Of a DNA stretch of 33,540 nt, positions 3,334 to 29,151 are shown piece after piece. Below the pieces are notes generated by a model, which worked only from the letters and a program-made list of their open reading frames with translations, was not told the DNA's origin and ran no database searches. Numbering within the stretch: the stretch's first letter is position 1; the number at the start of each line of letters is the position of its first letter. Origin of the DNA: a virus; the IMG/VR virus record IMGVR_UViG_3300020420_000039, positions 1-33,540 of that record. One strand, 5' to 3'. A program made the translations under genes and the position numbers.

Positions 3334-3915
3334 CTAGTGTGTAAACTCCAACCAAGTAGTGATACAATACTTGTCTCCGGTCAGTGGAGGATTGCCTCTA
3401 TGTGTATGAGTGTAGCCAGCCGGACAAAACATTATGTTTCCCTCTACGGCAGGAACACGTCGGCTTTGATATAGGAATTCAGTCTCCCCACCTTCCGCAA
3501 CAGTGTTTAGGTAAGCCATTGCTAGTATGCAACGTTGACCCGTGTCTCGACTTGCGTGTTCACAATGCCATATGTGATAACCTTCTGATGGTTTGGTGTG
3601 TTGTATTTTGATTGAGTGTGATATCTGCAAAGGGTTAGTGTTTTCAAAGATTCCAAATTCACTTGTATATTCCTTTACACATCTTTGCACTGCTTCATAG
3701 TAAGGAGTCAACAGTTTGTTCATTGATAGTGCAAACGTTCCTGATTCTCCTTCGTCATACAGCATAGCACCATCCTTGTTCATTTTAGGAGCACTTTCAT
3801 TTGCTGTCTGTCTAGATAGTATGCGTGTACCTTCCTGTTGATGATAATAGTCTATTACCGTTTTACAGTAGTCTGGGTCTAGTTGATTGGGAAACACTTT
3901 GATAAAATCTTGCAT
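3334..3915 (-). CDS. 2OG-Fe(II) oxygenase (prolyl-hydroxylase-like)
   Basis: This 193-aa protein has the double-stranded beta-helix signature of 2-oxoglutarate/Fe(II) oxygenases: WHCEH around residues 116-120 (a proximal H-x-E instead of the usual H-x-D), AYLNTVAEGGETEF in the middle, and a distal FCPAGYTHTHRGNP with His at 170 or 172 followed by a basic residue (K182) that could bind 2-oxoglutarate. This is the P4Hc-like layout common in marine myoviruses. The substrate is unknown; protein, nucleobase or sugar hydroxylation are all possible. The ATG lies 5 bp after a late-like octamer (3921-3928), suggesting late, leaderless expression. Confidence 0.85.
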   Translation of the reverse strand: MQDFIKVFPNQLDPDYCKTVIDYYHQQEGTRILSRQTANESAPKMNKDGAMLYDEGESGTFALSMNKLLTPYYEAVQRCVKEYTSEFGIFENTNPLQISHSIKIQHTKPSEGYHIWHCEHASRDTGQRCILAMAYLNTVAEGGETEFLYQSRRVPAVEGNIMFCPAGYTHTHRGNPPLTGDKYCITTWLEFTH

Positions 3916-4284: not shown

Positions 4285-4905
4285 ATGACACCAGAAGAAT
4301 ACAAATCAGAACTAACAAAGATATGCGGACACAGAAAGATGGACGTAGGTGCCAAGTACATTAGACATTGGGATCAGTTTTGGCTAGAAAAGAATTACTG
4401 CATAGACTTAATGAAAGAACGCAATATGCTTCAAGGAGTAAACAGCATACTTGAAGTAGGTGCAGGTATAGGAATGTTAGGTTATCTACTTAAACAAGAA
4501 ATACCTCAACTGGATTTTGAACACACGGATACAGATGAATATCTTAACGAGCCAATATACAAAGGTGCTTGTGATTTGTTAAATTCAAAAAGATATAGTT
4601 TGTATATTAACGATAGTCAACCTATGAACTTACCACGTAAGTATGATATGTTGGTTGCTACTAGAACAGTCTTTGATAGAGAATGTATGCCACCAGGAGT
4701 TGTTTTTAATTATAGATACTGGTTAGATGATTGTTTCAAATACGTTGATAAAGTATTTGTAAAAACAAATTATCAAGCAAGTGGTAAAGGGTTTCAAGAT
4801 TACATAAGACCGTTTTTATTTTTTCCACATGGACTAGGCAAACCAAGAAGAGGTTGGTATATAATAGTAACTAAAGAACAGTGGAACAATCGTGTCGAAA
4901 GATAG
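4285..4905 (+). CDS. Putative SAM-dependent methyltransferase, 206 aa
   Basis: Residues about 55-69 read ILEVGAGIGMLGYLL, a textbook class I methyltransferase motif I (E-V-G-A-G-x-G), followed by HTDTDEY as a likely ribose-binding acidic strand. MLVATRTVFD fits the motif IV strand region. There is no DNA-methylase DPPY/NPPY motif, so a small-molecule, sugar or protein substrate is likelier than DNA. It overlaps the GSCFA protein gene by 14 bp, suggesting the two act on the same product, for instance a methylated and acylated or deacylated surface sugar. That link is inference. Confidence 0.75.
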   Translation: MTPEEYKSELTKICGHRKMDVGAKYIRHWDQFWLEKNYCIDLMKERNMLQGVNSILEVGAGIGMLGYLLKQEIPQLDFEHTDTDEYLNEPIYKGACDLLNSKRYSLYINDSQPMNLPRKYDMLVATRTVFDRECMPPGVVFNYRYWLDDCFKYVDKVFVKTNYQASGKGFQDYIRPFLFFPHGLGKPRRGWYIIVTKEQWNNRVER

Positions 4906-5851
4906 AAAATTTAATCTAAGTGCAAATCATAAAGCAACTGGTAAGATGACTGCCGGTAGTTTACATCCTAAGAGCGGTTGGCACAAACCAGACAGCGGTA
5001 TGACTTACTTCCCACGCAACAAGGAAGACTTTGTTCCTATAGATGAACTAGCAAAGAAATATATATTTGATCATTACTATCCTGAGTTGCCTATGTTTGG
5101 GTCAGATGATAAAGTTGTAACCATGGGCAGTTGTTTTGCAGATAGACTACGTACTTGGTTACGTAAGAATGGTAAGAACGCAGATTACATCACAGTACCA
5201 GAAGGACTTAATAATTCATTTGCAGTAAGACAATGGATAGAATGGATATGCACAGGAGATAGAAGTACTGATGCTTATTGGTATGACAATGATAAAAGTG
5301 CTGGTGCGTTTAAATGGGAACCAGAACAAGAGCAAAAAGAATTATTAGATTACTTTAAAACAACAAAAGGTTTTGTAGTAACTTACGGACTTGCAGAAGT
5401 TTGGAGAGATAAAAAGACCAAAGGTGTATTTTGGAGAGGCGTACCCAACAAAGTGTTTAGTCCAGAAATGCACGAATCAGTTACAAGTACAGTAGAAGAA
5501 AATGTTAACAATATGAAACGTATTGCAGATCTTATTCATAAGACTTGTGGAGAAGATAAGCATATAATTTATACACTATCCCCTGTACCTTTAGCGGCTA
5601 CATTTCAAAACAGACCAACTATGGTAAGTGATTGTGTGAGCAAAAGCATATTACGTGTTGCCCTAGATGAATACTTTAGAAAACATAATCCTAAGAATGT
5701 TTATTATTGGCCTAGTTTTGAAATGGTACGCTGGGTAGGTCCTCATATAGAAGTACCTACATTATTCGAAGACAATACAACACGTCACGTAAACAATTCT
5801 ATTGTATCAATTATTATTGATAATTTTGTAAAGGCTTTCTTTAAAAACTAA
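4892..5851 (+). CDS. GSCFA/SGNH-type hydrolase-like protein, 319 aa
   Basis: The motif VVTMGSCFADRLRTWL (Ser80 if the GTG at 4892 is used) is the hallmark after which the GSCFA family (PF08885, related to SGNH/GDSL esterases) is named. Further family-like features are a central FVVTYGLAEVWRD block and a YTLSPVPLAATF stretch. A C-terminal Asp-x-x-His dyad is not clear to me. Starts: the GTG at 4892 lies inside the preceding gene; the ATG at 4943 (residue 18) is the alternative. No signal peptide is seen, so it acts in the cytoplasm. It is probably an acyl-ester hydrolase or transferase on sugars, from family knowledge. The stop overlaps the convergent polymerase gene at CTAA. Confidence 0.75.
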   Translation: MSKDRKFNLSANHKATGKMTAGSLHPKSGWHKPDSGMTYFPRNKEDFVPIDELAKKYIFDHYYPELPMFGSDDKVVTMGSCFADRLRTWLRKNGKNADYITVPEGLNNSFAVRQWIEWICTGDRSTDAYWYDNDKSAGAFKWEPEQEQKELLDYFKTTKGFVVTYGLAEVWRDKKTKGVFWRGVPNKVFSPEMHESVTSTVEENVNNMKRIADLIHKTCGEDKHIIYTLSPVPLAATFQNRPTMVSDCVSKSILRVALDEYFRKHNPKNVYYWPSFEMVRWVGPHIEVPTLFEDNTTRHVNNSIVSIIIDNFVKAFFKN

Positions 5852-7482
5852 CGCCACTGATTCAGTGTGTATAACTTTGCGTCATAGCAATCAATGTAGT
5901 CTGAGTTATTACTGTGTCTTACTCTACCAGTTCCATGTATGATGTCTCCATCTCTATAAGCAAAAGGTTTGTGTATAACAACATCAATGTAATCTCCAAA
6001 GTTAGTTCCTAGTGTTACAAACGTAACGTATCTACCTTTGTTGCCTTTGTAAACTCTACCATTAGCGACTAGTCCTGCAAACTCAACTCTGTCTAACCAT
6101 TGTTGTCTAACTCCTAGTGCAGGAACAAACCCATTCTTCCACCAACCGTTCATAGTAGGGATTCCGTGTCTGTGTGCTTCTGTTTGATATACCCAACGCC
6201 TGTATGAACCTTCACAGTGTTTTAAACAAGCCGCCCAGAACTCTTTAGGATTGTGTGCCTTTTGATATGCTAATGCCCATATGAGTCTACCTAAGTTTAC
6301 TGCGTGTGCTCTACATAATCCAAAGCCACCAAGTTGTTCAAGAGCCATCATGGCTTCTTTCTTTTTAGGGTGATTACCAAGACGTTCTACAAACTCCATA
6401 ATCTTTTCATCATTCTTTTTTGCAAATGCACGACGATACATATCTGCTTCGTACATATCAATATCAATTAAACTTGCAATGATCTCAATAGCATCATCTT
6501 CAAACACTACTGAATCTTGTACTGCTTCTTTTGACCAGTCATGAAACATAGCGGCCTTTTGTCTACCACTCAATGCTACCGGACGTATCAATGCAGTTGC
6601 AAACACACAGTCATGAACACTTTTAGGTTGTATCGCTCTAAACAATCTTCGCATGGCTGGCGACTCACCCTGTGTTACTCCTAGTACATCTCCACGAGAT
6701 AATAACGCACTTGTCTTTTCATCTTCTTCAGGATAGTTTTCTAATTTGGTAACTCCATTAATTTCCATTAGTTGGGACAATCCTCTGTTAGCAAGTATGT
6801 CAACTTTTAAATGTTCCAAGTCTTCAATTTCATATTTGTCCAAAAGTATTTGGTTGTCTTGAGATATAAGACTTTTTGGTAACTGTCTATCAAACATAAT
6901 GATACCACCACAGTGTTTTGAAATGGCACGTTTCTTTCCGAGCAGTTTCTTTTCTATTCTTTTTGCTTCTTTAATGTCTATATCATAATCTTCATATTTA
7001 AAGTTACGTGGTAGGTTACCTTTTACTCCTAATCGTTTTGCCGCTTCTTTCTTTGCACTCTTTTCTCTATACATTACATAGTTTGATAGTCGTGCAGTTT
7101 TGCCTGGCCATTTTTTAAATATACGTTGCATAACTTGTCCTTGTTGATGATGTTCAAAATCAATATCAACATCTGGTAAGTCATCACGCATTGGATTCAT
7201 AAAACGTGCTACTGGTATATTCCATTTGATTGGATCTACATCTGTGATACCTAATAGATAACAGATTAAACTGCTACCTGCAGAGCCACGTGTCATGTGT
7301 TGTAAGTCTTGCGTAAGATCTATTATGTCACAAATTTTATGAAAGTATTCTGTAAAACGTAAGTTTAAGATAAGTTCAAACTCTTCTACGAGTCTGTCTT
7401 TGTATTTTGAATTATTAACTTCTGGTATGGGTCGTTTGAATCGAGATATAAGACTCTCTATGTTTTCTAAATCAGTTGCCAT
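5848..7482 (-). CDS. C-family (DnaE/ImuC-like) DNA polymerase core without PHP domain, 544 aa
   Basis: Motifs of bacterial Pol III alpha appear in order: TRGSAGSSLICYLLGITDVD (from residue 64; usual GRGSA), PDVDIDF at 103-109 (the two palm Asp), HCGGIIMF near 190, LKVDIL with Asp228 (third catalytic Asp), ALIRPVALSG, a fingers block with YEADMYRRAFAKKN, GGFGLCRAHAVN, and an OB-like C-terminal part (GLVANGRVYKGNKGRYVTF). The N-terminal PHP domain (~270 aa) and the tau-binding tail are absent, so it is about half the usual size. The layout resembles DnaE2/ImuC translesion enzymes. AGGAGG precedes the ATG. It lies downstream of the gp41 helicase. All catalytic Asp are present, so activity is plausible; its role beside or instead of a family-B gp43 is unknown. 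Confidence 0.85.
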   Translation of the reverse strand: MATDLENIESLISRFKRPIPEVNNSKYKDRLVEEFELILNLRFTEYFHKICDIIDLTQDLQHMTRGSAGSSLICYLLGITDVDPIKWNIPVARFMNPMRDDLPDVDIDFEHHQQGQVMQRIFKKWPGKTARLSNYVMYREKSAKKEAAKRLGVKGNLPRNFKYEDYDIDIKEAKRIEKKLLGKKRAISKHCGGIIMFDRQLPKSLISQDNQILLDKYEIEDLEHLKVDILANRGLSQLMEINGVTKLENYPEEDEKTSALLSRGDVLGVTQGESPAMRRLFRAIQPKSVHDCVFATALIRPVALSGRQKAAMFHDWSKEAVQDSVVFEDDAIEIIASLIDIDMYEADMYRRAFAKKNDEKIMEFVERLGNHPKKKEAMMALEQLGGFGLCRAHAVNLGRLIWALAYQKAHNPKEFWAACLKHCEGSYRRWVYQTEAHRHGIPTMNGWWKNGFVPALGVRQQWLDRVEFAGLVANGRVYKGNKGRYVTFVTLGTNFGDYIDVVIHKPFAYRDGDIIHGTGRVRHSNNSDYIDCYDAKLYTLNQWR

Positions 7483-10538: not shown

Positions 10539-10649
10539 CTATTTGTAGATAAAAGGATCTCTTTTCTTAAGTTCCTTTATCCTTTTCTTCAAACGTCTTT
10601 TTTCTAAAAAGTCGTTCCAAGCCTTTCTAAGTTTGCTTAACCAAACCAT
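10539..10649 (-). CDS. Very basic micro-protein, 36 aa
   Basis: This frame starts inside the 3' end of the primase gene (13-bp overlap), with AGGAG 7 bp before the ATG, and ends 13 bp before the DUF2061-like gene. The peptide is helical and cationic (FLEKRRLKKRIKELKKRDP). A well-placed ribosome binding site and tight gene spacing support it. It may bind nucleic acid or the primase-helicase complex, but this is inference from charge and position. Confidence 0.65.
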   Translation of the reverse strand: MVWLSKLRKAWNDFLEKRRLKKRIKELKKRDPFIYK

Positions 10650-11644
10650 TTCTTTGCTCCTAATTGTATCTTTAAAGGATTGTGTTCTGCACTTGTGATA
10701 ATACTATGTAAAGTATAGATTTTACCATAAGCCTGAACCGCTTCATTTACATCCTTTACAGATTCATCCCAGTCAGGCATTGCTACTGACCATCCCAAGT
10801 CTATTGCTTGTTGGATTAGTTTTTCGCCTGCTTCATCTCTGTCAGGCATAACTACTACCTCTGTATTTAAATTATTAATCAACATTGCTTGTTGATCTTT
10901 GATTTCGCTACCAAGTAGTGCAACGCCTTCAACTGCGATTGCATCAAAGGGACCTTCAACCACGACTGTGTATATACGATTAGTATTAACCTGAGCATCA
11001 AGGTTGAATACATAGCCTGGTTGTTGGTCACTTAGATACTTAGGATTACCGTCCGTAATCTTACGAGCAGTATATCCTACTACTTTGCCTTTATGATAGA
11101 ATGGTATTATTATTCTATCCTTATAGCCAACTTCAGGTGTCCAATGAAAATCATAATCATCTAAAAACAATTTTCTTGATTTAAGATATTCAAATACCTT
11201 AAACAAGTTATTGTCTACACCTGTAGACTCAAGAGCCTGCCAGTCATCCCAGCGGTCGAGTCTTCTTGCGCCATTAGGCAAATCTTTTACTTCGAAGGTT
11301 GGTAATTGTACAATAGGTTTGTGAACTGTAATACCTTCATTGCTTTTCATTATTTGTAAAGCAAGTTTTGTAATTACATCATCTGGTGTACCTAACCATT
11401 GTAGAAACTTTTTAAATTTGTAACTTAAATTACGTCCGGGTGCCCAACTACATTTATAACCACAGTTGAAACAATGATAACTTATTCCTCCATCTGAGTT
11501 TGATATTAGTCCACCTCTTAATCTTTTATCTGCTGAGTCACCATTGTGTATGCAACATGGTGCATTGAAACTTGTCCAACCACTTGGAGTGTGTTTACGT
11601 TTCGAAGGCAAGTGTGCCGTGACTGTTTCTTGTAAGATGCTCAT
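10637..11644 (-). CDS. 61: DNA primase (T4 gp61 / DnaG type)
   Basis: The N-terminal zinc-binding site is CCIH (30-33) with CFNC (58-61), as in CHC2-type primases. The Toprim domain shows VVVEGPFDAIAV (E230, metal-binding Glu) and VVMPDRDEAG (D268-x-D270), with the RNA-polymerase-like basic patch GRVVGYTARK before it. At 335 aa it matches gp61 (342 aa in T4). It synthesises RNA primers with the gp41 helicase. The ATG at 11644 is 6 bp after a TTGACT-17-TATAAT promoter, so it heads the operon primase, 36-aa, DUF2061-like, carbamoyltransferase. Confidence 0.92.
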   Translation of the reverse strand: MSILQETVTAHLPSKRKHTPSGWTSFNAPCCIHNGDSADKRLRGGLISNSDGGISYHCFNCGYKCSWAPGRNLSYKFKKFLQWLGTPDDVITKLALQIMKSNEGITVHKPIVQLPTFEVKDLPNGARRLDRWDDWQALESTGVDNNLFKVFEYLKSRKLFLDDYDFHWTPEVGYKDRIIIPFYHKGKVVGYTARKITDGNPKYLSDQQPGYVFNLDAQVNTNRIYTVVVEGPFDAIAVEGVALLGSEIKDQQAMLINNLNTEVVVMPDRDEAGEKLIQQAIDLGWSVAMPDWDESVKDVNEAVQAYGKIYTLHSIITSAEHNPLKIQLGAKKWFG

Positions 11645-12482: not shown

Positions 12483-12854
12483 ATGTTAAGAAAAGATATC
12501 GAAGAAAAATTTCCGTTTATTAGTGTGGTAACTTACGGGCAAAAAGAGTTCGTAGGCATCATAAACAACCAGGATAACTTTGTTACAAGTATGTATGTGT
12601 ACACAGATTTAATGGATGATGCGGATAAAACAGCCTTTATGGAACTAGGAGAAGCATGGTGGTGGGAGTCAAATAGAATGATTCCTATTAGTATTTTTAT
12701 GCGTAAGGATATGGAACGTTTTAGGCATATACTTACAACTATGAATAGCAAAGATGTAAAAGTTACACTAGGCCCAACTGTTAATCTTAACAATCTTAGT
12801 GTAAAAAGGGTAAAAAGAAAATCAGTTCAACTTATACGTAAGCCTAAGTCTTAG
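12483..12854 (+). CDS. Conserved-type hypothetical late protein, 123 aa
   Basis: The product starts MLRKDIEEKFPFISVVTYGQ, has a tryptophan-rich centre (GEAWWWESNRMIP) and a basic C-terminus (KRVKRKSVQLIRKPK). No catalytic motif is recognised; I have an unverified impression of homologues in marine T4-like phages. It is divergent from the structural gene and probably read from the exact late octamer at 12434-12441 or from upstream. CGAGAA before the ATG is a weak ribosome binding site. The 3' end overlaps the mini DnaE-like gene by 11 bp. Confidence 0.75.
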   Translation: MLRKDIEEKFPFISVVTYGQKEFVGIINNQDNFVTSMYVYTDLMDDADKTAFMELGEAWWWESNRMIPISIFMRKDMERFRHILTTMNSKDVKVTLGPTVNLNNLSVKRVKRKSVQLIRKPKS

Positions 12855-13419
12855 TTTTTAAACTTTCCAACTGTTCACAAATTAAATTCATATGCACAAC
12901 TATTGCATGAGCATAAGCAACCGCGTGTGCCTTCTTAAAGTAATATGATCCATCACTTGGTTTTATCCACACGTCTTTCATTATGTCTGGCCATGACTTC
13001 GTCGTAAGATGCCTCTTTGCTGGTCTTATCATTGCCAGTACTGCCGCTAGTTGGCTTATTGATGTTGGCTTCAGTTTCTTTAGTAGAGAACTGTGTTCTC
13101 CTACGTGAAACAAGTTGTTGCTGAACTCTGCTTCTCCAAGTAGATCCCATAATGGCTCCTTTGTCATAAGTTTGATTAGATGCTCTTCATCTTTTACTTG
13201 TTTGTAAATGAATACATTAAGTAAATCTATTTTAAAATATTTTCTATCTTCTGCTGTCTCATAATCCAATGTTGAAAGATTGTCTATTGGATTGTGTGGA
13301 ATCTCTGTGAAGTAAACTCCAGTATTATGCTTCTTACCATTCTCAAGTTTTGCAACTCTATGATTAAGTTTATCTAGTATTACTTCTCTGTCTGCAAAGT
13401 CTATATCTATATCAGGCAT
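12844..13419 (-). CDS. DnaE-like mini-protein, 191 aa (C-family polymerase palm remnant or adaptor)
   Basis: The protein begins directly with MPDIDIDFADRE (catalytic palm box of C-family polymerases, residues 2-8), then HNTGVYFTEIP (equivalent of the H-A-G-V segment), YFKIDLLNV (third Asp, D65), LKPTSISQLAAVLAMIRPAK (usual 'LaP.s..DLaa..AliRPg') and FKKAHAVAYA (usual 'KsHAvaYA', 161-170). Every signature block of Pol III alpha after the palm Asp is kept but the linking parts are cut away, and PHP, fingers bulk and OB are missing. It is too small for a normal polymerase. It sits third in an early operon with a zinc-ribbon protein. I recall similar short proteins in marine cyanophages, unverified. 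Confidence 0.75.
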   Translation of the reverse strand: MPDIDIDFADREVILDKLNHRVAKLENGKKHNTGVYFTEIPHNPIDNLSTLDYETAEDRKYFKIDLLNVFIYKQVKDEEHLIKLMTKEPLWDLLGEAEFSNNLFHVGEHSSLLKKLKPTSISQLAAVLAMIRPAKRHLTTKSWPDIMKDVWIKPSDGSYYFKKAHAVAYAHAIVVHMNLICEQLESLKTKT

Positions 13420-15257: not shown

Positions 15258-15681
15258 ATTGTTCTAACAACTCCTTAAACTCTTTCTTTGTCATTAGACT
15301 TAACATTAATTGTAATTCGTCTTCTTTCATGTTAGGATAAATTTTTTCAAGTTCTTTTTGATCTTTGTTACTTGTCTTTTTATGTTTGTATCCGATCCAT
15401 TCATGATATTGTATTTTGCCTGTGTTACCACTCATGCACAATAGTTGCCATAAAAGTTTTTTATGTTTTTGTAATACAAAGAATCCTTTGTTGTAATATT
15501 CATTTGTTTTGAATACTGCAAGTTCGGCTTTTTCTCTTGTGCTTTTTACACTAGACACATATCTGTTTAACAAATAAAAACTTACTTGTTTTCTTTCTTC
15601 ATCAGACAGTTCGTCCCAAACGTCCTTTGCGTTTAGATCGATTGCGGCTAGTATGTCTTTAAGCGGTAGTTTCTTCTGCAT
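15250..15681 (-). CDS. Possible clamp-loader small subunit (gp62-like), 143 aa
   Basis: The protein has LPLKDILAAIDLNAKDVWDELSD, a FYLLNRYVSSVKSTREKAEL block, HKKLLWQLLCMSGNTGKIQYHEW, and an acidic helical end. This pattern matches my memory of proteins annotated as gp62 in marine T4-like phages, but T4 gp62 itself is longer (187 aa) and no gp44 gene is in the window, so the assignment is tentative. It would act with gp44 to load the gp45 sliding clamp. It overlaps the 2OG oxygenase gene (15659-15681) and the SGNH gene (15250-15257), so it is translationally coupled. Confidence 0.5.
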   Translation of the reverse strand: MQKKLPLKDILAAIDLNAKDVWDELSDEERKQVSFYLLNRYVSSVKSTREKAELAVFKTNEYYNKGFFVLQKHKKLLWQLLCMSGNTGKIQYHEWIGYKHKKTSNKDQKELEKIYPNMKEDELQLMLSLMTKKEFKELLEQYA

Positions 15682-16252
15682 TTAATTTTGTCTCTATACT
15701 GTATGTCATTCCTATACTAACACGTAATGGCACAGAAGTCACGTCCATAGTATGCCAATAATGTGCTGGAAATAAAACTCCATTACCTTTTTTATATTTT
15801 GTTCTTTTTAATTCTGTCTTGCCTTCGTCTGAAAAGAATACTGTATCTCCGTCTGCATCATTTACGTAATATACAAATGTCCAAAGTCCTGGCTGTCCAT
15901 TACGTACATCATTGTGCGGTCCATAATATACTCCTTGCACTGTACCATTAAGTCTTGTTCTTGTAACTTGATTTACCTGTGCATCAGGAATATACTTTGG
16001 TATAATATCCATAGTCAATCCAGTGTGTAACATATTGCTTAATTCTTTATGGTCATCTAATATATTACTTGATGTACAATACATAACGTTTGTAAACAAG
16101 GCAGGTGTCTTATAGTTGCCGTCTTGTTCATCTTCTTCTGGTACATTTACAAATTTCCAATCTACATCTTTAGTTTGGTTTTCAATATATGTTACTAACC
16201 AATTTGGAAACGGGTTTTCGATTTCGAATATTTTATTTGGATCTCTAAGCAT
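15659..16252 (-). CDS. 2OG-Fe(II) oxygenase, 197 aa
   Basis: The facial triad is visible: YGPHNDV with H113-x-D115 and FPAHYWHTM with H167, followed by R177 (PLRVSIGMTY) for the 2-oxoglutarate carboxylate. The centre FVYYVNDADGDTVFF is the usual strand pair. It is a complete small dioxygenase; the substrate is unknown. It is the first gene after the best early promoter in the window (TTGACA-17-TATAAT, -10 ends 6 bp before ATG), ahead of the gp62-like, SGNH and C2H2 genes. A strongly early dioxygenase suggests action on host or phage nucleic acid or protein soon after infection, which is inference. Confidence 0.88.
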   Translation of the reverse strand: MLRDPNKIFEIENPFPNWLVTYIENQTKDVDWKFVNVPEEDEQDGNYKTPALFTNVMYCTSSNILDDHKELSNMLHTGLTMDIIPKYIPDAQVNQVTRTRLNGTVQGVYYGPHNDVRNGQPGLWTFVYYVNDADGDTVFFSDEGKTELKRTKYKKGNGVLFPAHYWHTMDVTSVPLRVSIGMTYSIETKLNAEETTA

Positions 16253-16851: not shown

Positions 16852-17579
16852 TTGTTTCTCCTTTTCATTCTGTTAACAAACTTTTGATATGATCCTAAAC
16901 CAATCATTAAACTATTCAACTTTGCAAGTTCTTGTGTCGTAACAAGTTCAGTTTTTAATTTAATTTTTTTATCTGATAATGGAATCAATTGTAACCACGG
17001 ATCTCCAACTTCGACTTTTATTTCACTATTAAACGGAACCATTAAGTTTACAATAGTTGCGTGTTGGTATTTAAATTCTGTTATTGCAGGACAGGTCCAA
17101 TATTTTAATGGGTCTGTTTGATGCCATGAAGGACTTGTCCATATAAACTCTACTCCACTCTTTTCTCTAATCTGCCAAGGACTCATTACCTTACCATGAA
17201 ACATATTAGGCTTATGGTGTGCATAGTCTTGTGGATCATGTGGTATTAATGGCACGTTTTCTGGATATGTCTGCACTTCGCAAACATCTACTTGATCAAA
17301 TGTTTTTAAGTTAAGTTGTAACCAAGCAGGAAATATTATTCCTGTTGTAAGCATTTGGTTAACGTGTGGACAACGTTTTAGTGTTGCATTATCTAATCCT
17401 CTGTATGTAGGGGTGTCCATCTTACGAGTAGACGGCATAGACTTCCACCAATCAGGCATAGAGTCTCTAGCAAGTTCAGGACCATATGCTTCATAGATTA
17501 CTCTTTGATCAGTAAAGCACTCTACTTCAATAGTAGGTGTAGGCACAAATATATCAAATATTTTTTTCAATGTGTTCAT
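16848..17579 (-). CDS. Hypothetical protein with DUF6065-like pattern, 243 aa
   Basis: Conserved-looking blocks are MPDWWKSMPSTRKMD near residue 42, RGLDNATLKRCPHVNQMLTTG, EFIWTSPSWHQTDPLKYW, CPAITEFKYQHATIVNLMVP and VGDPWLQLIPLSDKKI. The order 'CP..., G.i.paW..., SP..., N..vPF, ...G.P..QliP' resembles DUF6065-type proteins from memory. No catalytic residues are assignable. It overlaps the start of the cupin gene and begins inside the 2OG oxygenase gene (17554-17579), so three possibly related oxidative enzymes are translated together. Confidence 0.65.
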   Translation of the reverse strand: MNTLKKIFDIFVPTPTIEVECFTDQRVIYEAYGPELARDSMPDWWKSMPSTRKMDTPTYRGLDNATLKRCPHVNQMLTTGIIFPAWLQLNLKTFDQVDVCEVQTYPENVPLIPHDPQDYAHHKPNMFHGKVMSPWQIREKSGVEFIWTSPSWHQTDPLKYWTCPAITEFKYQHATIVNLMVPFNSEIKVEVGDPWLQLIPLSDKKIKLKTELVTTQELAKLNSLMIGLGSYQKFVNRMKRRNK

Positions 17580-18195
17580 TACTTAATTGTTCTGGGCGTT
17601 GTAATTCTGCATGAATATTTAAACCCATTACTATTCTTTCTTGGTTAGATTGATTAGGTTGACTTCTATGACTTAACCAACCAGGGAAAAATATAATGTC
17701 CCCTTGCTTTGCTTCTACTTCAGTATAGTATTCGTGTAGTGTTGTAGCACCATGCGGATGTCTTGGATAACTTCCCCATAGGTGTTTGTGTATGTTTGTA
17801 AATTCTAGGTTGCCACCTTTTTCAGGTTGCTGTAAATAAAAGGACATAACCATATGTGCGTCACCGTGGTCGTGTGTGTCAGTCCATTGGTTAGCAGTAT
17901 GCTTGTTTACCCAACTCTTTGTTATACCAAACCAGTTGTAATGTAATTCCCAAGCATCAAGTACCTGTTTGACATAAGGTTCTATGTCATTACAAAATGT
18001 AATCATCTCAGGCCACAGATGAGGTGCGTCTGTATGTCCTGTACTTGTTATGCCGCCTTCACGTTCTACTTCGCCGTGGTCTGTGATCTTACTTAAAAAA
18101 TTTGAAGCACGTTCTTGTAACTTGCTTACATCTTTATCGTAATTAGTCTTCCAAATAAGATTTGGACTTAGACTTATTCGTTCCAAGTCTGTCAT
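17554..18195 (-). CDS. 2OG-Fe(II) oxygenase (2OG-FeII_Oxy_5-like), 213 aa
   Basis: HDHGDAHMVMSFYLQQPEKG has the proximal H110-x-D112, and GDIIFFPGWLSHRSQPN has the distal H176; R187 is the likely co-substrate arginine. This order and spacing fit the 2OG-FeII_Oxy_5 group common in marine phages. It is intact, unlike the related protein at 27208-27804, which aligns with it over the strand core. The substrate is unknown. It overlaps the small membrane-protein gene (18143-18195) and the 243-aa gene. Confidence 0.88.
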   Translation of the reverse strand: MTDLERISLSPNLIWKTNYDKDVSKLQERASNFLSKITDHGEVEREGGITSTGHTDAPHLWPEMITFCNDIEPYVKQVLDAWELHYNWFGITKSWVNKHTANQWTDTHDHGDAHMVMSFYLQQPEKGGNLEFTNIHKHLWGSYPRHPHGATTLHEYYTEVEAKQGDIIFFPGWLSHRSQPNQSNQERIVMGLNIHAELQRPEQLSNEHIEKNI

Positions 18196-22277: not shown

Positions 22278-22306
22278 ATTATACTACGAACTTGCTAGAA
22301 AGTCAA
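22278..22306 (-). promoter_or_regulatory. Early sigma70-like promoter P1 (TTGACT-17-TATAAT)
   Basis: TTGACT (22301-22306) and TATAAT (22278-22283) on the minus strand are exactly 17 bp apart; the -10 ends 9 bp before the ATG at 22268. It overlaps the last codons of the 279-aa gene upstream. It drives the 422-aa/UvsW operon down to about 16284. Confidence 0.9.
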
Positions 22307-23134
22307 GTGTTTTAAAGGCAAACCTTCAGATATCTCATCAATAGTCCATTCGGTGTAAGCCAAATCGTTAAACCATTGTGTTCTATCAGGACGTATTGGT
22401 AATGTAATTGTATCTAAGTTTTGATTAGCAACAGGCCAAGCAAGGCTATGCGGTCCTGTAAAAACTGGTACACCTTCAATCATTGCCTGCGTTGCAGGAT
22501 TGCTAGACCAATTTATAACTGCAAATGCGTTATCTGTTTTGAAATCAAAATCATCATAAGAGTCTTTTATTTTTATAGGTTGTTCACGTATTACGTTTTC
22601 AAACTCGTGTTCGATTCCTCCCACAGGACATCTTGGGTGTGGTCTCCAAATTATTCTTCTGCTACTAATTCTACGTATTTGGCTTATAATATCGTCCAAC
22701 CATTTAGCCATAGGAGGCATATCTCTCCACTGATGACTCTTGTCATGTTGGCCACAAATAATAATATCTTCACCAAATACATTCCAAGGTTCTAATGATA
22801 TACCTAGTTTAGCACATCTATGAAAGTTGTTTCCTTTTGGACCAAAGTCTGCTTCTCCATTAATACCATTTAGTCCTACCTTCCATGTTGTACCTCTAAT
22901 AAGTCCACCAACTTCTAGTACTAAAACATCTTTACCTTGGCTTCTTGCATTTTTAAAAATCTGTTCATTAGGTGCCATGCGACCATTCCATAACACACTC
23001 CATATGACAGGAATATCGCAATCGTCTGTGTTAAATGCAACTTGATGTCCTAAGGCTGTAATACCTTTTTCAAGAGCAGTAAAGATAGGCTTACTGTTCA
23101 AAGCGCCATATTGTGTCCATAGTCCAAATTTCAT
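22295..23134 (-). CDS. GT-B/KpsC-like capsule-sugar transferase-like protein, 279 aa
   Basis: The core has RRIIWRPHPRCPVGG, typical of capsule-polysaccharide (KpsC/KpsS-like) and CDP-glycerol-type GT-B folds ('hhhR.HPr'), and a following INWSSNPATQAMIEGVPVFTGP sequence, the 'h...ss....A...G.PV' nucleotide-sugar site. The C-terminal motif LAYTEWTIDEISEG reappears in the proteins at 23984 and 24931. It probably adds a sugar to phage or host surface glycan. Expression is late, from an exact TATAAATA at 23154-23161. Confidence 0.75.
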   Translation of the reverse strand: MKFGLWTQYGALNSKPIFTALEKGITALGHQVAFNTDDCDIPVIWSVLWNGRMAPNEQIFKNARSQGKDVLVLEVGGLIRGTTWKVGLNGINGEADFGPKGNNFHRCAKLGISLEPWNVFGEDIIICGQHDKSHQWRDMPPMAKWLDDIISQIRRISSRRIIWRPHPRCPVGGIEHEFENVIREQPIKIKDSYDDFDFKTDNAFAVINWSSNPATQAMIEGVPVFTGPHSLAWPVANQNLDTITLPIRPDRTQWFNDLAYTEWTIDEISEGLPLKHLTF

Positions 23135-23147
23135 AGTTAAATACCTG

Positions 23148-23161
23148 TGTAAATATTTATA
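23148..23161. promoter_or_regulatory. Divergent overlapping late promoters
   Basis: Minus: exact TATAAATA at 23154-23161, 19 bp before the ATG at 23134. Plus: TGTAAATA at 23148-23155, with AAGG before the ATG at 23173 (17 bp leader). The core TAAATATTTA is a palindrome, so one 14-bp element can fire both ways. Confidence 0.7.
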
Positions 23162-23172
23162 AGGATGATGTA

Positions 23173-23991
23173 ATGGATAATATACTAGTGGTAACTACAT
23201 TCCATAAACCGGGTTTGGATAGTTACGGTCAACGTATGTTAGATACTTTTGCAACAAATGTTGATAAAAGAATTAAACTAGTATGCTATGCAGAAGATTG
23301 TGATCCAGTAAATCCTGATCCTGAACAAATCAAAATAGTAAATCAAACACACCTAACTAAACTTTTAGCCTTTAAAGAAACATGGAAAGACGAACCCAAA
23401 GCAAATGGCAAATGTCCTTGGCCTGAAAGACGTCCGAGAGATTGGCATAAAGAATTTAAATGGGACGCAGTAAGATTTGCAAACAAAGTTTATGCAGTGT
23501 TTGATGCATTTCATAATAGCGAAAAAGATTTAGTTGTATGGATGGATGCTGACACAGTTTGTCATGCACCAATCACGTATGAAAAGTTTGAGTCTTTCTT
23601 TAAAGAACGTACTTGGTTATCGTATCTTGGAAGAGCACATAAATGGCCTGAGTGCGGATTCTATGGAATTAGAAAAAGTGTAAGTGGTGGGAAAGAGTTT
23701 ATTCAAGAATTTCAACGTGTGTATGACGATGCTGAAAACGGAATATTTAAAATGGAAGAATGGCATGACAGTTTTGTTTTCAACGAAGTACTTAAAGGTA
23801 TGCGTGGACAATATCCAGACATTAACGACCTAAGCGGACATCTAGTAAAAGGTGAGGGGCATCCTTTAATCAATACAGAACTTGGTGCATACTTTGATCA
23901 TCTTAAAGGTGATAGAAAAGATTTAGGTATCAGTAAACGAAAAGATCTATTTAAATTACGCGACGAAGAATATTGGAAAGATATTAAATAG
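23173..23991 (+). CDS. GT-A-type glycosyltransferase-like protein, 272 aa
   Basis: VVWMDADTVCHAPITYEKF has a D125-x-D127 metal/nucleotide-sugar site preceded by a hydrophobic strand, the GT-A signature. The N-terminus ILVVTTFHKPGLDSYGQRML and the FKWDAVRFANKVYAVFDAF segment (substrate and nucleotide contacts) also fit. The C-terminus with WHDSFVFNEVL is typical of the acceptor loop in this class. It probably transfers a sugar onto a glycan or protein. It starts from a divergent late promoter and converges with the 23984 gene (8-bp overlap). Confidence 0.72.
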   Translation: MDNILVVTTFHKPGLDSYGQRMLDTFATNVDKRIKLVCYAEDCDPVNPDPEQIKIVNQTHLTKLLAFKETWKDEPKANGKCPWPERRPRDWHKEFKWDAVRFANKVYAVFDAFHNSEKDLVVWMDADTVCHAPITYEKFESFFKERTWLSYLGRAHKWPECGFYGIRKSVSGGKEFIQEFQRVYDDAENGIFKMEEWHDSFVFNEVLKGMRGQYPDINDLSGHLVKGEGHPLINTELGAYFDHLKGDRKDLGISKRKDLFKLRDEEYWKDIK

Positions 23992-24937
23992 GAGCAGGAA
24001 TATTATTTTTGTCTGCCCATTTACGCATATGGTTCCATATCTCACCTTGTTTAGATTCCTCTAAGGTCCAGTGACACATTGCAAGTTTTTGCAACCACGG
24101 TTCTCTATCAAATTCTTTTGGCTCTAATAATTGATTAAAATTATGATGTGAAACATCTAATGCTTGACTTCTTCCTGCGTCTGTAAGAAACACAGGTACA
24201 CCTTCTATTGCCGCAATTATTCCAGGACTACTATTGTGTCCAACCATTGCACAGGCATTTTGTAAATCTTGAAAAATTGTCCTGTTTGTACTTGCATAAA
24301 CTTTTTGTGAAGTCATATGTCTAATGCGTTGTGGATAAGTTGGTGCTAGTTTGTCTCCAGGATGAAATCTAACAACAATAGGATTTGCACTTATCAAACG
24401 TATTTCCTTAATTGTTTTTTCTAACCAAACAAATACATCTTGTCCTTGCATACTCCAACCACCATGACGCTGACAACAGATCAAAATATGTCCATCGTGT
24501 TTTGTCTTCCAAGGTTTAACTTCTATGCTTAACATTTCTTTTATTTTTTCCCAACGTGTAGGGTCTACAATACTTGTACAATATTCACCTGTGTTAGCAA
24601 ATATACCATCGTAACCATAACGTAGATATCCTTTGCTGTTATTATTATCATATGCTAAGAATAAATTACTGTCTACAATAATACAACGTTTACCTCTTTT
24701 AATTTGATTTTCATATACATTGCGTCTTAATTTAATATGTGGTGTAGGTTTACTGTTTGCATGAACAAAGCCTTGTATTAATGCAACGTCTGTGTCCAAA
24801 GGCATATATGTATCTACAAGTAAACCTTTATCTCCTGATCGGTTAACACCTTCAATAAAGTTTTTAATTATTGCTGGCTTCTCTGGCTTACTGTTTCCCG
24901 GAGGAATACATTTCAAATAACTTGATACTGTTAGCAT
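23984..24937 (-). CDS. GT-B/KpsC-like protein, 317 aa
   Basis: The frame extends to 25024, but the ATG at 24937 is preferred: it overlaps the upstream stop as ATGCTAA, whereas the longer form would overlap by 94 bp. Motifs: IVVRFHPGDKLAP (R-x-HPg), ACAMVGHNSSPGIIAAIEGVPVFL (nucleotide-sugar site, N-S-S...A-x-E-G-x-PV), and the shared C-terminal LAMCHWTLEESKQGE. The N-terminal ~90 residues form a Rossmann-like half (ALIQGFVHANSK, RCIIVDSNLF). It is likely a capsule-type sugar transferase. It is a paralogue of its two neighbours, as judged by shared motif order. Confidence 0.75.
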   Translation of the reverse strand: MLTVSSYLKCIPPGNSKPEKPAIIKNFIEGVNRSGDKGLLVDTYMPLDTDVALIQGFVHANSKPTPHIKLRRNVYENQIKRGKRCIIVDSNLFLAYDNNNSKGYLRYGYDGIFANTGEYCTSIVDPTRWEKIKEMLSIEVKPWKTKHDGHILICCQRHGGWSMQGQDVFVWLEKTIKEIRLISANPIVVRFHPGDKLAPTYPQRIRHMTSQKVYASTNRTIFQDLQNACAMVGHNSSPGIIAAIEGVPVFLTDAGRSQALDVSHHNFNQLLEPKEFDREPWLQKLAMCHWTLEESKQGEIWNHMRKWADKNNIPAPI

Positions 24938-25734
24938 AATCCATAGTCCCTTATAATCTTCATAGCCTTCCCTGACTGCAATTCTAAAGGTGTGTACTGG
25001 CAATATGCTAACCAATTTTGCCATGCTACTACTTCTTGTGGATCTGTGTAAAGGGGTCGTTCTATTCTAGATAAATCATTTAACACCAAAGTACCCGCGG
25101 CACAGGCTCCTGGTGCTGTTGCAAAGGCAGGTACTCCCCACCCAACTGCTTCGGTTGCCGCTATTGAATTGTATGTTACGACTGCGTATATGTCATCTTC
25201 ATTTAATTGTGTAAGTAAACTTCCGTCTCTAATTCTTTCACGTCTTAGACCTTTGTCTCTTATAATAATTTCTCTATCAGTATGTTTTTTTAATTCTGCG
25301 ATTGTTTCTTTTACCCAATCGTCTCTAGTAATACCATAAAACTTACAAGGCTTTTCACTTGGAGTAACAAGCAAAATGTTTTTACCAGGTCTTCGCCATT
25401 GATTAAATCTTATTTGCGAAGCACCAGTAAGCAAGTCAAATCTATCACTTGGTAAATCTAATCTTGGCTTTGTGTGTTGTACATTGTTAGGAACAACCCT
25501 ATGCCACCATTTCTTTTTGTTTAAGTTTCCTAGATATCCTGTGTCAATGTAAAAGAAAGGTCTTCCTTCATTCCAAAATCGATGTATCTCTTTTCTACGT
25601 GTCATTGAACGTAGTATAACAGGAACGTGTGCAGGGTATCTTTCGATACGTATGGACTTTGCTGGAACTACATCTGCTTCTGTAGATTCAACTAGTAATT
25701 TTACTATCTGATCAAATTCATCAATCGCTAACAT
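24931..25734 (-). CDS. GT-B/KpsC-like protein, 267 aa
   Basis: Residues around 113-122 read NILLVTPSEKP, followed by a DREIIIRDKG strand where the paralogues have R-x-HP (His missing here), then YAVVTYNSIAATEAVGWGVPAFA (sugar-nucleotide site) and the shared C-terminal LAYCQYTPLELQSGK. Its order is the same as in 22295 and 23984, so the three look like paralogues, of which this has the least typical HP motif. It overlaps the GT8-like gene start by 14 bp. Confidence 0.72.
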   Translation of the reverse strand: MLAIDEFDQIVKLLVESTEADVVPAKSIRIERYPAHVPVILRSMTRRKEIHRFWNEGRPFFYIDTGYLGNLNKKKWWHRVVPNNVQHTKPRLDLPSDRFDLLTGASQIRFNQWRRPGKNILLVTPSEKPCKFYGITRDDWVKETIAELKKHTDREIIIRDKGLRRERIRDGSLLTQLNEDDIYAVVTYNSIAATEAVGWGVPAFATAPGACAAGTLVLNDLSRIERPLYTDPQEVVAWQNWLAYCQYTPLELQSGKAMKIIRDYGLC

Positions 25735-26410
25735 TCATCATATCCGCTAGTTCTAATTTCCATTCTTTGTGATAATCACAATCTCGATAATTTTCAAACC
25801 ATGGACCGCCTTCGGTATAGTGTAGTAGTTTAGGCTTGCCATCTTGAGGTTCTTTGTACCAATCGGTTAACCAGTTCCATTCATGTGATAGTTGTCCTAC
25901 CTCACTGTCTTGTAACCAACTAAACCTATGTAAATATTTTCCTGTAATATTTGTATCATTTACAACACTGCTACTAATCTTTTTATTGCTAGGATGTCCG
26001 CAGTTAAAAAGCATTACACTAGACCAATTTTTTCTAGGATATAATACTTGCTTCTGCCCGTCCATCTTCATTCCTTCTCTAGGAGTATAATCATGATGAA
26101 CACACATTACAGCATACTTGTCATCTGCTTGGTCAAATAGTTCTTGTATATCTGTTAATAGAATCATATCACAATCCATAAACAATGCCCAACCTTTATA
26201 GTCACAAAGTTCTGGTATTAGGAATCTAGTAAATGTAAATTCAGTTGATGACAAAGGATCAATAGGTCTAGTGTACCAACCTGAATCTCTTAATTCTTTT
26301 TGTATCAAAGGTCGCACCAATACCTCTTGGTTTCTTCTTGCAATACTATGTTTGCAAACTTGATAGGCAATGTCTTCTCTAGGATCGTAACCTACAAACA
26401 CTTTGTTCAT
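25721..26410 (-). CDS. GT8-like glycosyltransferase, 229 aa
   Basis: VFVGYDPREDIAYQVCKHSI at the start, GWALFMDCDMILLTDI with the D79-x-D81 metal motif, NWSSVMLFNCGHPSNK, and LLHYTEGGPWFENYRDCDYH at the end are the family-8 layout (strand, DxD, then H...G.p acceptor site). It uses a nucleotide sugar with Mn2+. A TATAAT at 26417-26422 lies 6 bp before its ATG but with no -35 box. It sits in the same minus-strand run as the fusion protein upstream (ATGA overlap at 26407-26410). Confidence 0.83.
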   Translation of the reverse strand: MNKVFVGYDPREDIAYQVCKHSIARRNQEVLVRPLIQKELRDSGWYTRPIDPLSSTEFTFTRFLIPELCDYKGWALFMDCDMILLTDIQELFDQADDKYAVMCVHHDYTPREGMKMDGQKQVLYPRKNWSSVMLFNCGHPSNKKISSSVVNDTNITGKYLHRFSWLQDSEVGQLSHEWNWLTDWYKEPQDGKPKLLHYTEGGPWFENYRDCDYHKEWKLELADMMNVSD

Positions 26411-27168
26411 TTTCTAATTATATCACTTTCTATACATTTAGGACCATATTGTACTTCTAAAATATGACACGGTTCTTTTGTATGATTTATGCCTTGATGC
26501 CATTCATTTACTTCAATAGTGGTGCTTTGGTTTTGGATTAATTTTTGTGTGGTATCCAAATCACTACTGACGTCTAGAGTCCCTATTGTCACTTCGCCTT
26601 TAAGCACGTACCAATGTTCTGCTCTATGCTCATGTCTTTGCATAGATAAAAATTTATCAGGTTCTATAACAAGTTCCTTAACTTTGTATCCAGGCTTGTC
26701 ATCTAATACACGATACCAACCCCAAGGACGTTTAGTCTTAGGAAATTTATATTCTTCTAGGATCCAACTACTTGAATTAATTTTATCTTCACCACCCACA
26801 CCAAATGCAAATTCAATTTTATCGCCATAGGTTGCCATCTCAGGAATGTTGTCTTTAGTTCTGTCTCCACCATTAGCAAAAATTATATCTTTACCAAAGC
26901 CTGAAGTTGCCATTAGTTTATAGATTGCTCCACAGGCAGTATTATCACTATCGTCCCATACTAGCACATCATCTACCATAGATAGGTTACTGATTATTTC
27001 CACACGTTCTTGTATTGGCATAAATGGTTGACCTTTTTTACGTGTAAGCCATTCGTCTGAATTTAGACCAACAACCAATTTATCACCCAATTTTTTTGCG
27101 GATTTGAAGTATGCAATATGCCCACTATGTAGAGGATCAAAGCCTCCTGTCACTAAAACGACTTTCAT
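26407..27168 (-). CDS. Nucleotidyltransferase-cupin fusion (RfaE/HldE-C-like + mannose-6-P isomerase type-II-like)
   Basis: Using the ATG at 27168 (not the 27216 one, which would swallow the promoter), residues 1-140 form a cytidylyltransferase-like domain with GGFDPLHSGH (HxGH at 14-17), an SDEWLTRKKGQPFMPIQER block and ANGGDR (98-103). Residues about 148-253 form a cupin of the type-II mannose-6-phosphate isomerase kind: RPWGWYRVLDDKPGY, metal-binding H179-x-H181...EHWYVLKGEV and NEWHQGINHT. The two normally belong to different pathways (ADP-heptose or sugar-1-P activation; GDP-mannose synthesis), so this single-chain combination probably activates an unusual sugar. It is late-promoted and coupled to GT8. 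Confidence 0.82.
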   Translation of the reverse strand: MKVVLVTGGFDPLHSGHIAYFKSAKKLGDKLVVGLNSDEWLTRKKGQPFMPIQERVEIISNLSMVDDVLVWDDSDNTACGAIYKLMATSGFGKDIIFANGGDRTKDNIPEMATYGDKIEFAFGVGGEDKINSSSWILEEYKFPKTKRPWGWYRVLDDKPGYKVKELVIEPDKFLSMQRHEHRAEHWYVLKGEVTIGTLDVSSDLDTTQKLIQNQSTTIEVNEWHQGINHTKEPCHILEVQYGPKCIESDIIRK

Positions 27169-27173
27169 AACAG

Positions 27174-27181
27174 TATTTACA
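27174..27181 (-). promoter_or_regulatory. Late-like octamer TGTAAATA
   Basis: TGTAAATA on the minus strand ends 5 bp before the ATG at 27168 and is followed by CTGTT with no Shine-Dalgarno sequence. It matches 7 of 8 bases of the T4 late consensus. Confidence 0.55.
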
Positions 27182-27207
27182 CAACTGAAAATTTGATAAT
27201 TATTAAT

Positions 27208-27804
27208 ATGAAACAAGTGAATTTATTCAGCCATGACTTGTATGTTGTGGAATTTTCAAAGCACAACGAAGTTAAAGAACTATTGGGCAGGGTAGTTACA
27301 GACTATCAAAAGATATCTGCAAACAATAATATTCAACACGTTAATACTTGGGAAAGCATAAACAACATACACACAAACAACGCCTTAAACCATGTTCTTA
27401 AGAGCGAAGAAGTTTCTAACTTTGTTAAAGAAACAGTAAAGAGTCATGATATAAAACAAGGGCAAACTGTTGGGATCACAAGAAGTTGGTTTTATAGTGT
27501 TTACCCTGGCGGCTGTATAACAAAGAAACGTAACACAAATAGTTTCTATACAGGAATGTATTTTTTAAATGCACCTAGTAAAGCAGGAAGTTTAGTAATT
27601 GAAAATCCTGCTTCTGAATTTTATTTTAGTAAGATACACGTTGAAAACAAGAATCAATATAATAGTTGGGAACAATTTTGTCCTATGCCAGAAGGACAAA
27701 TATTCTTTGTTCCAGGTTACCTTAATCACAGAACAACAATTAACAATGAAGAAAAAGATCCTTTAAATGTCATTTGTTTTGATTTAGAAATAATCCAAAA
27801 ATGA
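27208..27804 (+). CDS. 2OG-Fe(II) oxygenase-fold protein with lost iron ligands, 198 aa
   Basis: The overall order, GMYFLNAPSKAGSLVIENP (core strands) and EGQIFFVPGYLNHRTTIN (distal H174), follows the 2OG-FeII_Oxy_5 protein at 17554. Where that one has H110-x-D112, this one has R-N-T-N-S (residues 108-112) just before the FYTGMYFL strand, so the proximal His and Asp are gone. It should not bind iron in the usual way and may be a pseudoenzyme or binder. The ATG at 27208 is preferred to the upstream TTG at 27193. It is coupled by ATGA (27801-27804) to the 139-aa gene. Confidence 0.75.
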   Translation: MKQVNLFSHDLYVVEFSKHNEVKELLGRVVTDYQKISANNNIQHVNTWESINNIHTNNALNHVLKSEEVSNFVKETVKSHDIKQGQTVGITRSWFYSVYPGGCITKKRNTNSFYTGMYFLNAPSKAGSLVIENPASEFYFSKIHVENKNQYNSWEQFCPMPEGQIFFVPGYLNHRTTINNEEKDPLNVICFDLEIIQK

Positions 27805-28220
27805 AGCACATAGACGAACTGTTTAAAAGCAGTAATCAAAATAAATTTAGTTATGTATTGATGTTACCAATGCAAGATAAGGTGTTAGAAACCGAACTTG
27901 CAAATTGGTTAAAGGATCGTGTAAACCTGGTTAAAACGCCTGTATATAAGCAGGAAGAACTAGAGTATATGTTTGAGTGCTCAGACTATGTTCTGTGCAG
28001 TGTAGGGCCCTTAAAATGCGTCGCAGACACCACTAAACCGGTGTTTTTAAACCTACATAAGGATAATTACAGTATAAAGAACAAAAACAACATATTTGTA
28101 TTTGATCCTTTTAGGAATGAGCAAAAGAAGGAAATGGATTACCAAAAAGTAATTCAGATCGCAATAGACTGTTTAAAGAAAGACTTAGATAAACACTGGA
28201 TACCATATTATGAAGTGTAG
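27801..28220 (+). CDS. Hypothetical protein, 139 aa
   Basis: It has an N-terminal helical half and a middle strand set, DYVLCSVGPLKCVADTTKPVFLNL, that faintly recalls the C-terminal half of GT-B sugar transferases ('D.h...sg......gkPv'), then a lysine-rich helix. No enzyme motif is complete. It is coupled to the inactivated oxygenase (ATGA) and overlaps the radical-SAM start by 11 bp, so it could be a partner or substrate protein of either. No family is recognised. Confidence 0.6.
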   Translation: MKHIDELFKSSNQNKFSYVLMLPMQDKVLETELANWLKDRVNLVKTPVYKQEELEYMFECSDYVLCSVGPLKCVADTTKPVFLNLHKDNYSIKNKNNIFVFDPFRNEQKKEMDYQKVIQIAIDCLKKDLDKHWIPYYEV

Positions 28221-29151
28221 TGCTTTTTGGAACCATACCAACATTAGAAGCGGAAATAGAATCTATCCTTGTTGTAGATTTAAAACTTCTATTGGTCAAT
28301 TTGATGGCGACATAGGCAATGTTCTAAACATTCCTGAATATCAAAAGATACGTGAAGCAAATGCAAAAGGCGAATTTATTAAAGGTTGTGAAAAGTGTTG
28401 GTACGAAGAAAAAATAGGACACAAAAGTTTAAGACAAGAATTTAACGAAAAATACAATTACGATAAAGTTGAACTTAAATTTTTAGAAATAGGTTTTGAC
28501 AACCTATGTAACTTAACCTGTGATGGTTGTAATTCAGAATTCAGTACTAGTTGGATAGTTAAAGAAAAAGAAATTTACGGTAGTGCTAAAAACAAGTTAA
28601 TGGAGATTGACGAAGTAACTAATGTCCCAGAGTCTATAAACAAAATTTTATTTTTAGGAGGTGAGCCTTTAATCACAGACAGACATTTAAAGTTACTTCG
28701 TCAAATTAAAAACAAAGACATAGAAATAATTTATAATACAAACGGAACCTTTATACCTAAGAAAGAAGAATTAGCAGAATTTAAATTGTACAAACAGGTT
28801 ACATTTATATTAAGTGTAGACGGAGTTCAAGACCTTGCAGAAAAAGTAAGAGGTGGAACCAAATGGTCTAAGGTATTAGAATTTGTTGAGTGGGTCAAAG
28901 AAAACAAATTTACTTTAGAATTTAATACAGTTGTACATACAAATAACTGGCACGGATTAGAAGACATATATAACTTCTGTAATAGATATGATGCTAAATG
29001 GTATGTGAATTGTTTGACATATCCTTTTAACTTATCCATTAATCAATTGAGTTATATGAAGAAACGTAAGTTAAAAAGTATGTTAAAGTATGTTGATATT
29101 CCGAATAAAGATTTTATTCTTGCTCACCTTGATACAAAACCCATTGCTTAA
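28210..29151 (+). CDS. Radical SAM protein with N-terminal Cys cluster, 313 aa
   Basis: The radical-SAM CxxxCxxC site is C100-x3-C104-x2-C107 (FDNLCNLTCDGCNSEF), followed by LFLGGEPLITD (GGEP) and a TIM-barrel-like order (IIYNTNGTF, FILSVDG). Before it, C3, C21, C22, C60 and C63 (IYPCCRF, GCEKCWYEE) form an N-terminal SPASM/twitch-like cluster. Such phage twitch-type radical-SAM proteins have unknown substrates; peptide, sugar or tRNA modification are possible. It overlaps the 139-aa gene by 11 bp and ends by overlapping the convergent GT-like gene by 38 bp. Confidence 0.88.
   Translation: MKCSAFWNHTNIRSGNRIYPCCRFKTSIGQFDGDIGNVLNIPEYQKIREANAKGEFIKGCEKCWYEEKIGHKSLRQEFNEKYNYDKVELKFLEIGFDNLCNLTCDGCNSEFSTSWIVKEKEIYGSAKNKLMEIDEVTNVPESINKILFLGGEPLITDRHLKLLRQIKNKDIEIIYNTNGTFIPKKEELAEFKLYKQVTFILSVDGVQDLAEKVRGGTKWSKVLEFVEWVKENKFTLEFNTVVHTNNWHGLEDIYNFCNRYDAKWYVNCLTYPFNLSINQLSYMKKRKLKSMLKYVDIPNKDFILAHLDTKPIA

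Follow-up and report, generated by a model that had tools for sequence, protein, structure and literature searches.

Large marine phages related to RaK2 often carry a shortened bacterial-type replicative polymerase next to the replication helicase

What is a bacterial-type (C-family) DNA polymerase doing directly downstream of the gp41-like helicase of a phage? The question is raised by a 544-aa protein encoded in the window, which here means the whole stretch of viral DNA analysed, a 33.5-kb fragment. A first-pass annotation had described this protein as a C-family polymerase without PHP domain or tail in a T4-like phage, and had offered it as replicase, translesion polymerase or co-opted factor. 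The gene and its terminal domain are placed as follows.

5848..7482, minus strand: 544-aa single-chain C-family DNA polymerase core (Pfam, PHROG, NCBIfam, AF2 model, Foldseek)
5863..6120, minus strand: C-terminal OB fold, about residues 455-540 (secondary structure, Foldseek matches to SSB proteins)

An AGGAGG ribosome-binding site precedes the ATG, and T4 late-promoter-like and CTAAATA motifs were not above chance. A GSCFA-family gene (4892-5851, plus strand) converges with the polymerase gene, and the two stop codons overlap by 4 nt (5848-5851).

We found that the profiles assign the protein to the C family. Pfam matched PF07733 (Pol III α catalytic domain, 4.6e-42, residues 15-231) and PF17657 (fingers, 5.2e-16, residues 245-370) and nothing else, HHH included; both domains occur in 42/42 relatives, and PHP, HHH and OB gave Pfam hits in none of these 42. 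PHROG 405 'DNA polymerase' matched at 4.6e-73. The top NCBIfam model was error-prone DnaE2 (NF004225/PRK05672, 1.3e-52), followed by general DnaE models, in keeping with the DnaE2/ImuC layout noted at first pass. Sequence matches in the PDB were to Pol III α of Taq, M. tuberculosis and E. coli.

Alignment to E. coli DnaE defines what has been lost. Residue 22 aligns to DnaE 281, and PHP lies before about 270; hence, the protein has no PHP domain, as had been claimed. Residue 444 aligns to DnaE 812 and the next aligned stretch starts at 888-998; hence, the (HhH)2/β-binding part is missing, and the segment matching DnaE about 813-960 is absent together with the CTD (τ-binding). Residues 455-540 align to the DnaE OB region, so the description 'tail-less' holds for the (HhH)2/β-binding part and the CTD but not for the OB fold, which stays. 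The resulting layout, with approximate edges, is palm (1-112), thumb (113-190), palm (191-240), fingers (241-440) and OB fold (455-540). A regular-expression scan of the family returned no conserved clamp-binding motif.

The predicted structure agrees with this assignment. With the AlphaFold (AF2) model (pLDDT 81.8, 42 sequences), all 19 Foldseek hits below E 0.001 were Pol III α/PolC, the best being 7pu7 (E 3.2e-23, TM 0.66 by query). The hits that ranked next were OB folds of SSB proteins, which match the C-terminus. The outcome that the first-pass annotation had named first as a refutation, a lack of structural match to DnaE, thus did not occur. In a viral structure library, no hit of comparable length reached a high target TM-score over the whole protein.

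The active-site blocks named in the first-pass annotation are present, with RPVALSG at residues 300-306 and the others as follows.

7282..7296, minus strand: M-T-R-G-S box, residues 63-67 (canonical G-x-G-R-G-S); R65/G66/S67 invariant in 42
7156..7176, minus strand: PDVDIDF, residues 103-109, with catalytic D104 and D106; both Asp invariant in 42 relatives
6799..6807, minus strand: KVD, residues 226-228, with the third catalytic Asp, D228; K226 and D228 invariant

In E. coli DnaE numbering, D104, D106, D228 and K226 are D401, D403, D555 and K553; R65/G66/S67 are R362/G363/S364, R350/R351 are R709/R710, R391 is K758 and H393 is H760, the last of which is the steric-gate His of E. coli. A steric-gate residue is described, with no number given, in the abstract of PMC8485763. 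Among 42 homologues with 39-93% identity to the window protein, the three catalytic Asp and the counterpart of H760 do not vary. Hence, the marks of the C family, i.e. the DxD...D triad, the GRGS box and the fingers His, are all found by Pfam, residue mapping and structure match, and the catalytic Asp would cluster, as judged from the alignment rather than from model coordinates. The departures are Arg for the canonical K758, GVTQ for the fingers motif GVFQ and, as reported at first pass, Thr for the first Gly of the G-R-G-S box (residue 64, E. coli G361). Almost all 544-aa proteins of the main clade have this Thr; its proposed meaning, a change in nucleotide selection, found no support, since the huge-phage record LR756508 has Leu at the same position and other phage/plasmid enzymes have Ala.

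The genes around the polymerase identify the phage group.

7746..9176, minus strand: gp41/DnaB-like replicative helicase (PF03796 1.5e-20, phrog_19 1.5e-63)
10637..11644, minus strand: gp61-like DNA primase (phrog_47 2e-36, Toprim)
12483..12854, plus strand: opposed small gene, 120 aa, phrog_11637 (syntenic with RaK2/PA5oct)
12844..13419, minus strand: C-terminal half of a split minimal Pol III, 191 aa, starting MPDIDIDF (phrog_11778 8.3e-61)

The helicase stands 263 nt upstream of the polymerase gene on the same strand, confirming the reported adjacency. The order C-half, opposed small gene, structural-type gene, gp61, gp41 is the same in the window, Klebsiella phage RaK2 and Pseudomonas phage PA5oct. 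The replication module of the window is thus that of the RaK2/PA5oct/Atu_ph07 jumbo-phage group, and the phage is not an ordinary T4-like one: the syntenic relatives are jumbo phages of the RaK2/PA5oct type. Gene order in permuted related contigs suggests a genome size near 350 kb. A search of the 33.5-kb fragment for gp43 (family-B polymerase) found none. The window also holds four separate 2OG-Fe(II) oxygenase-like genes within 33 kb (3334-3915, 15659-16252, 17554-18195 and 27193-27804), and 22295-33080 is dense with sugar-, cupin-, radical-SAM- and amidinotransferase-like genes, for many of which Pfam gives no hit.

The second C-family gene, 12844-13419, had been overlooked at first pass. 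In group 2.2 jumbo phages, a split minimal Pol III, encoded as two proteins by distant genes, is reported to accompany a family-B polymerase (PMC7824862, Iyer et al. 2021). The N-half (phrog_11127) ends just past the GRGS region, and the C-half (phrog_11778) begins at PDIDIDF. The 191-aa C-half of the window is 54.6% identical to the PA5oct protein, its relatives keep its catalytic motifs, DIDIDF and KxD, and its predicted model resembles Pol III α weakly. Hence, the window encodes both the 544-aa single chain and one of the split halves. Both forms belong to the same phage group and are C-family cores devoid of PHP and further Pol III domains. The split form, which stands beside a family-B polymerase, consists of two distant genes (about 175 + 190 aa) cut between the GRGS box and PDIDIDF, whereas the 544-aa form is one chain whose thumb and fingers are more complete and which includes an OB fold; it occurs together with the C-half.

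We surveyed IMG/VR contigs and four phage genomes for these genes. RaK2, Atu_ph07, PA5oct and four marine contigs (G022, G024, G048 and G069, 236-275 kb) have N-half, C-half and family B but not the 544-aa gene; the window lineage has the 544-aa gene and the C-half, the latter being conserved in genomes with and without the former. LR756508 (484 kb), an unannotated record of an uncultured huge phage, has a 574-aa homologue (LR756508.1, about 47.4-49.1 kb; L161 19977-21701) and a family-B polymerase but neither split half; the PF00136 matches of that polymerase are spread over two separate open frames (1022 and 625 aa). The 574-aa protein shares clade and architecture with the 544-aa protein at 37-38% identity, but it has no helicase linkage in the region inspected.

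On the surveyed marine contigs with the 544-aa gene, family B and the N-half were both absent, and these contigs end before the expected region, >120 kb off. This absence is uninformative, since relatives lacking the 544-aa gene keep these genes about 120-150 kb from the C-half. On a tree of the C-half, genomes with and without the 544-aa gene are intermingled, with at least 3 forced changes and 8 by parsimony, and a contig with the 544-aa gene is the sister of G022, in which that gene is missing and N-half and family B are present (SH-aLRT only). Hence, the 544-aa gene behaves as an optional gene. Most likely, family B and the N-half are encoded in the genome of the window too.

In most marine homologues the 544-aa gene lies on the helicase strand and downstream of the helicase, in many contigs by 12-310 nt; some contigs carry it inverted. 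Large marine RaK2-related phages often carry this shortened bacterial-type replicative polymerase beside the replication helicase. In most marine members it is about 4-9 kb from the C-half gene on the same contig. We found hundreds of homologues and a dN/dS of 0.05-0.10 (relatives with measurable dS), i.e. purifying selection; hence, the reading frame is not due to chance. The 544-aa single chain is a separate, strongly conserved clade that is patchily present.

In a tree with other C-family polymerases, this clade, LR756508 included, is monophyletic (100/100) on a long stem, and it stands weakly near DnaE2 (88/81). A tree held to a clade of the 544-aa proteins with DnaE2 only fits worse (p-AU 0.029), and a union with the split clade was not rejected (p-AU 0.43), though the split rows, in which N- and C-half were joined, are very divergent and long-branch effects are possible. 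Recent acquisition from a host was ruled out by the 25-29% identity to cellular enzymes and the long stem. With E. coli DnaE the protein shares catalytic residues, palm-thumb-fingers order and C-terminal OB fold at 25% identity, but it is without PHP, (HhH)2/β-binding and CTD. The DnaE-like enzymes of Streptomyces phage Sujidade and Vibrio phage VA-RY-3 are phage C-family polymerases too, but they have about 930-1158 aa, with about 240-310 residues ahead of the core, and fall outside the clade.

The likeness to DnaE2/ImuC is the closest by profile and raises the possibility of a dedicated translesion polymerase that forms a mutasome with a Y-family partner. DnaE2 has about 1050 aa, contains PHP and (HhH)2, and acts with ImuA'/ImuB. 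It shares with the 544-aa protein the top profile score, the core layout and the missing CTD (PMC3919608), and the weak tree grouping points the same way. However, identity to one Burkholderia DnaE2 is about 29%, no ImuB was found, and the Y-family domain PF00817 was absent from all 22 records, LR756508 and three cultured jumbo-phage genomes included, which argues against a classical ImuB-dependent mutasome. The neighbours of the window gene are the helicase and GSCFA, not imuA or imuB, and the clade with DnaE2 only is the poorer tree. Hence, we regard this reading as unlikely. It is likewise improbable that the 544-aa chain joins the 191-aa C-half in a hetero-oligomer, supplying or replacing the N-half in those genomes that carry the 544-aa gene. 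The two genes do lie close together on shared contigs and the N-half was seen on no contig with the 544-aa gene, but those contigs stop short of its expected place, the C-half is kept regardless of the 544-aa gene, and both halves are missing from LR756508, which has the 574-aa form.

That the protein replaced gp43 as main replicase, a role raised at first pass, would suit its full active site, its place beside the helicase and the lack of family B on the surveyed marine contigs that carry it. Yet it is without clamp-binding and proofreading parts, its gene is optional, and family B is present in G022 and G024, near relatives on the C-half tree where genomes with and without the gene intermingle, and stands alongside the homologue in LR756508; we consider replacement decidedly improbable. 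Least credible, and very improbable indeed, is a catalytically inactive structural or regulatory relic: several accessory domains are lost, K758 is Arg and GVFQ reads GVTQ, but the three catalytic Asp and the H760 equivalent are invariant in 42 sequences under strong purifying selection.

It is reasonably probable that the 544-aa protein is a catalytically competent, single-chain minimal C-family polymerase with an accessory role at the replication fork in marine jumbo phages of the RaK2-like kind. It is most likely accessory rather than a gp43 replacement because genomes with and without it intermingle and those without it hold family B and both halves; the co-occurrence of homologue and family B in LR756508 also counts for this role, and the inversion relative to the helicase in some contigs counts against it. 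Such an enzyme would make DNA distributively, with no proofreading or clamp binding of its own, and may be brought to the fork by the helicase-primase. Its most likely task would be to extend primers or pass obstacles, like DnaE3 or DnaE2, or to do both, before handing over to a family-B replicase probably encoded elsewhere in the same genome. The chances are about even that the phage of the window runs three polymerase active sites: a family-B replicase, a split minimal Pol III and the helicase-tied, PHP-less and HhH-less 544-aa core. If true, these would be a phage replisome dividing labour among polymerases.

Among bacterial C-family polymerases, a PHP-Pol3-(HhH)2 core is reported to be universally conserved (PMC3919608); the 544-aa family departs from it, with no PHP or HHH in 42/42. 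PF07733 domains are reported for about half of a marine jumbo-phage cluster, in passages that give no architecture (PMC9123017). The split minimal Pol III is published. In our literature search, mostly outside subscription papers, no account turned up of a conserved single chain from which PHP and (HhH)2 are both missing, so that this form is apparently undescribed. The clade is a conserved natural form cut down to core and OB fold; it offers a small model for what PHP and the clamp-binding parts do, and it opens to test the question why jumbo phages that have a family-B replicase retain further C-family polymerases.

Further observations concern single contigs of the survey. One end of the 183-kb contig G080 (L437, 1-16000) has bacterial-looking genes (adenylate cyclase-like, FecR-like) and may be chimeric, and the contig was not relied on as evidence. 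An N-half contig (G096), reached through a 5-aminolevulinate synthase (ALAS)-like gene at the end of contig G011, was not tied to any genome with the 544-aa gene. The ALAS-like gene itself (G011, L438 3612-4901) has relatives on at least 80 viral contigs.
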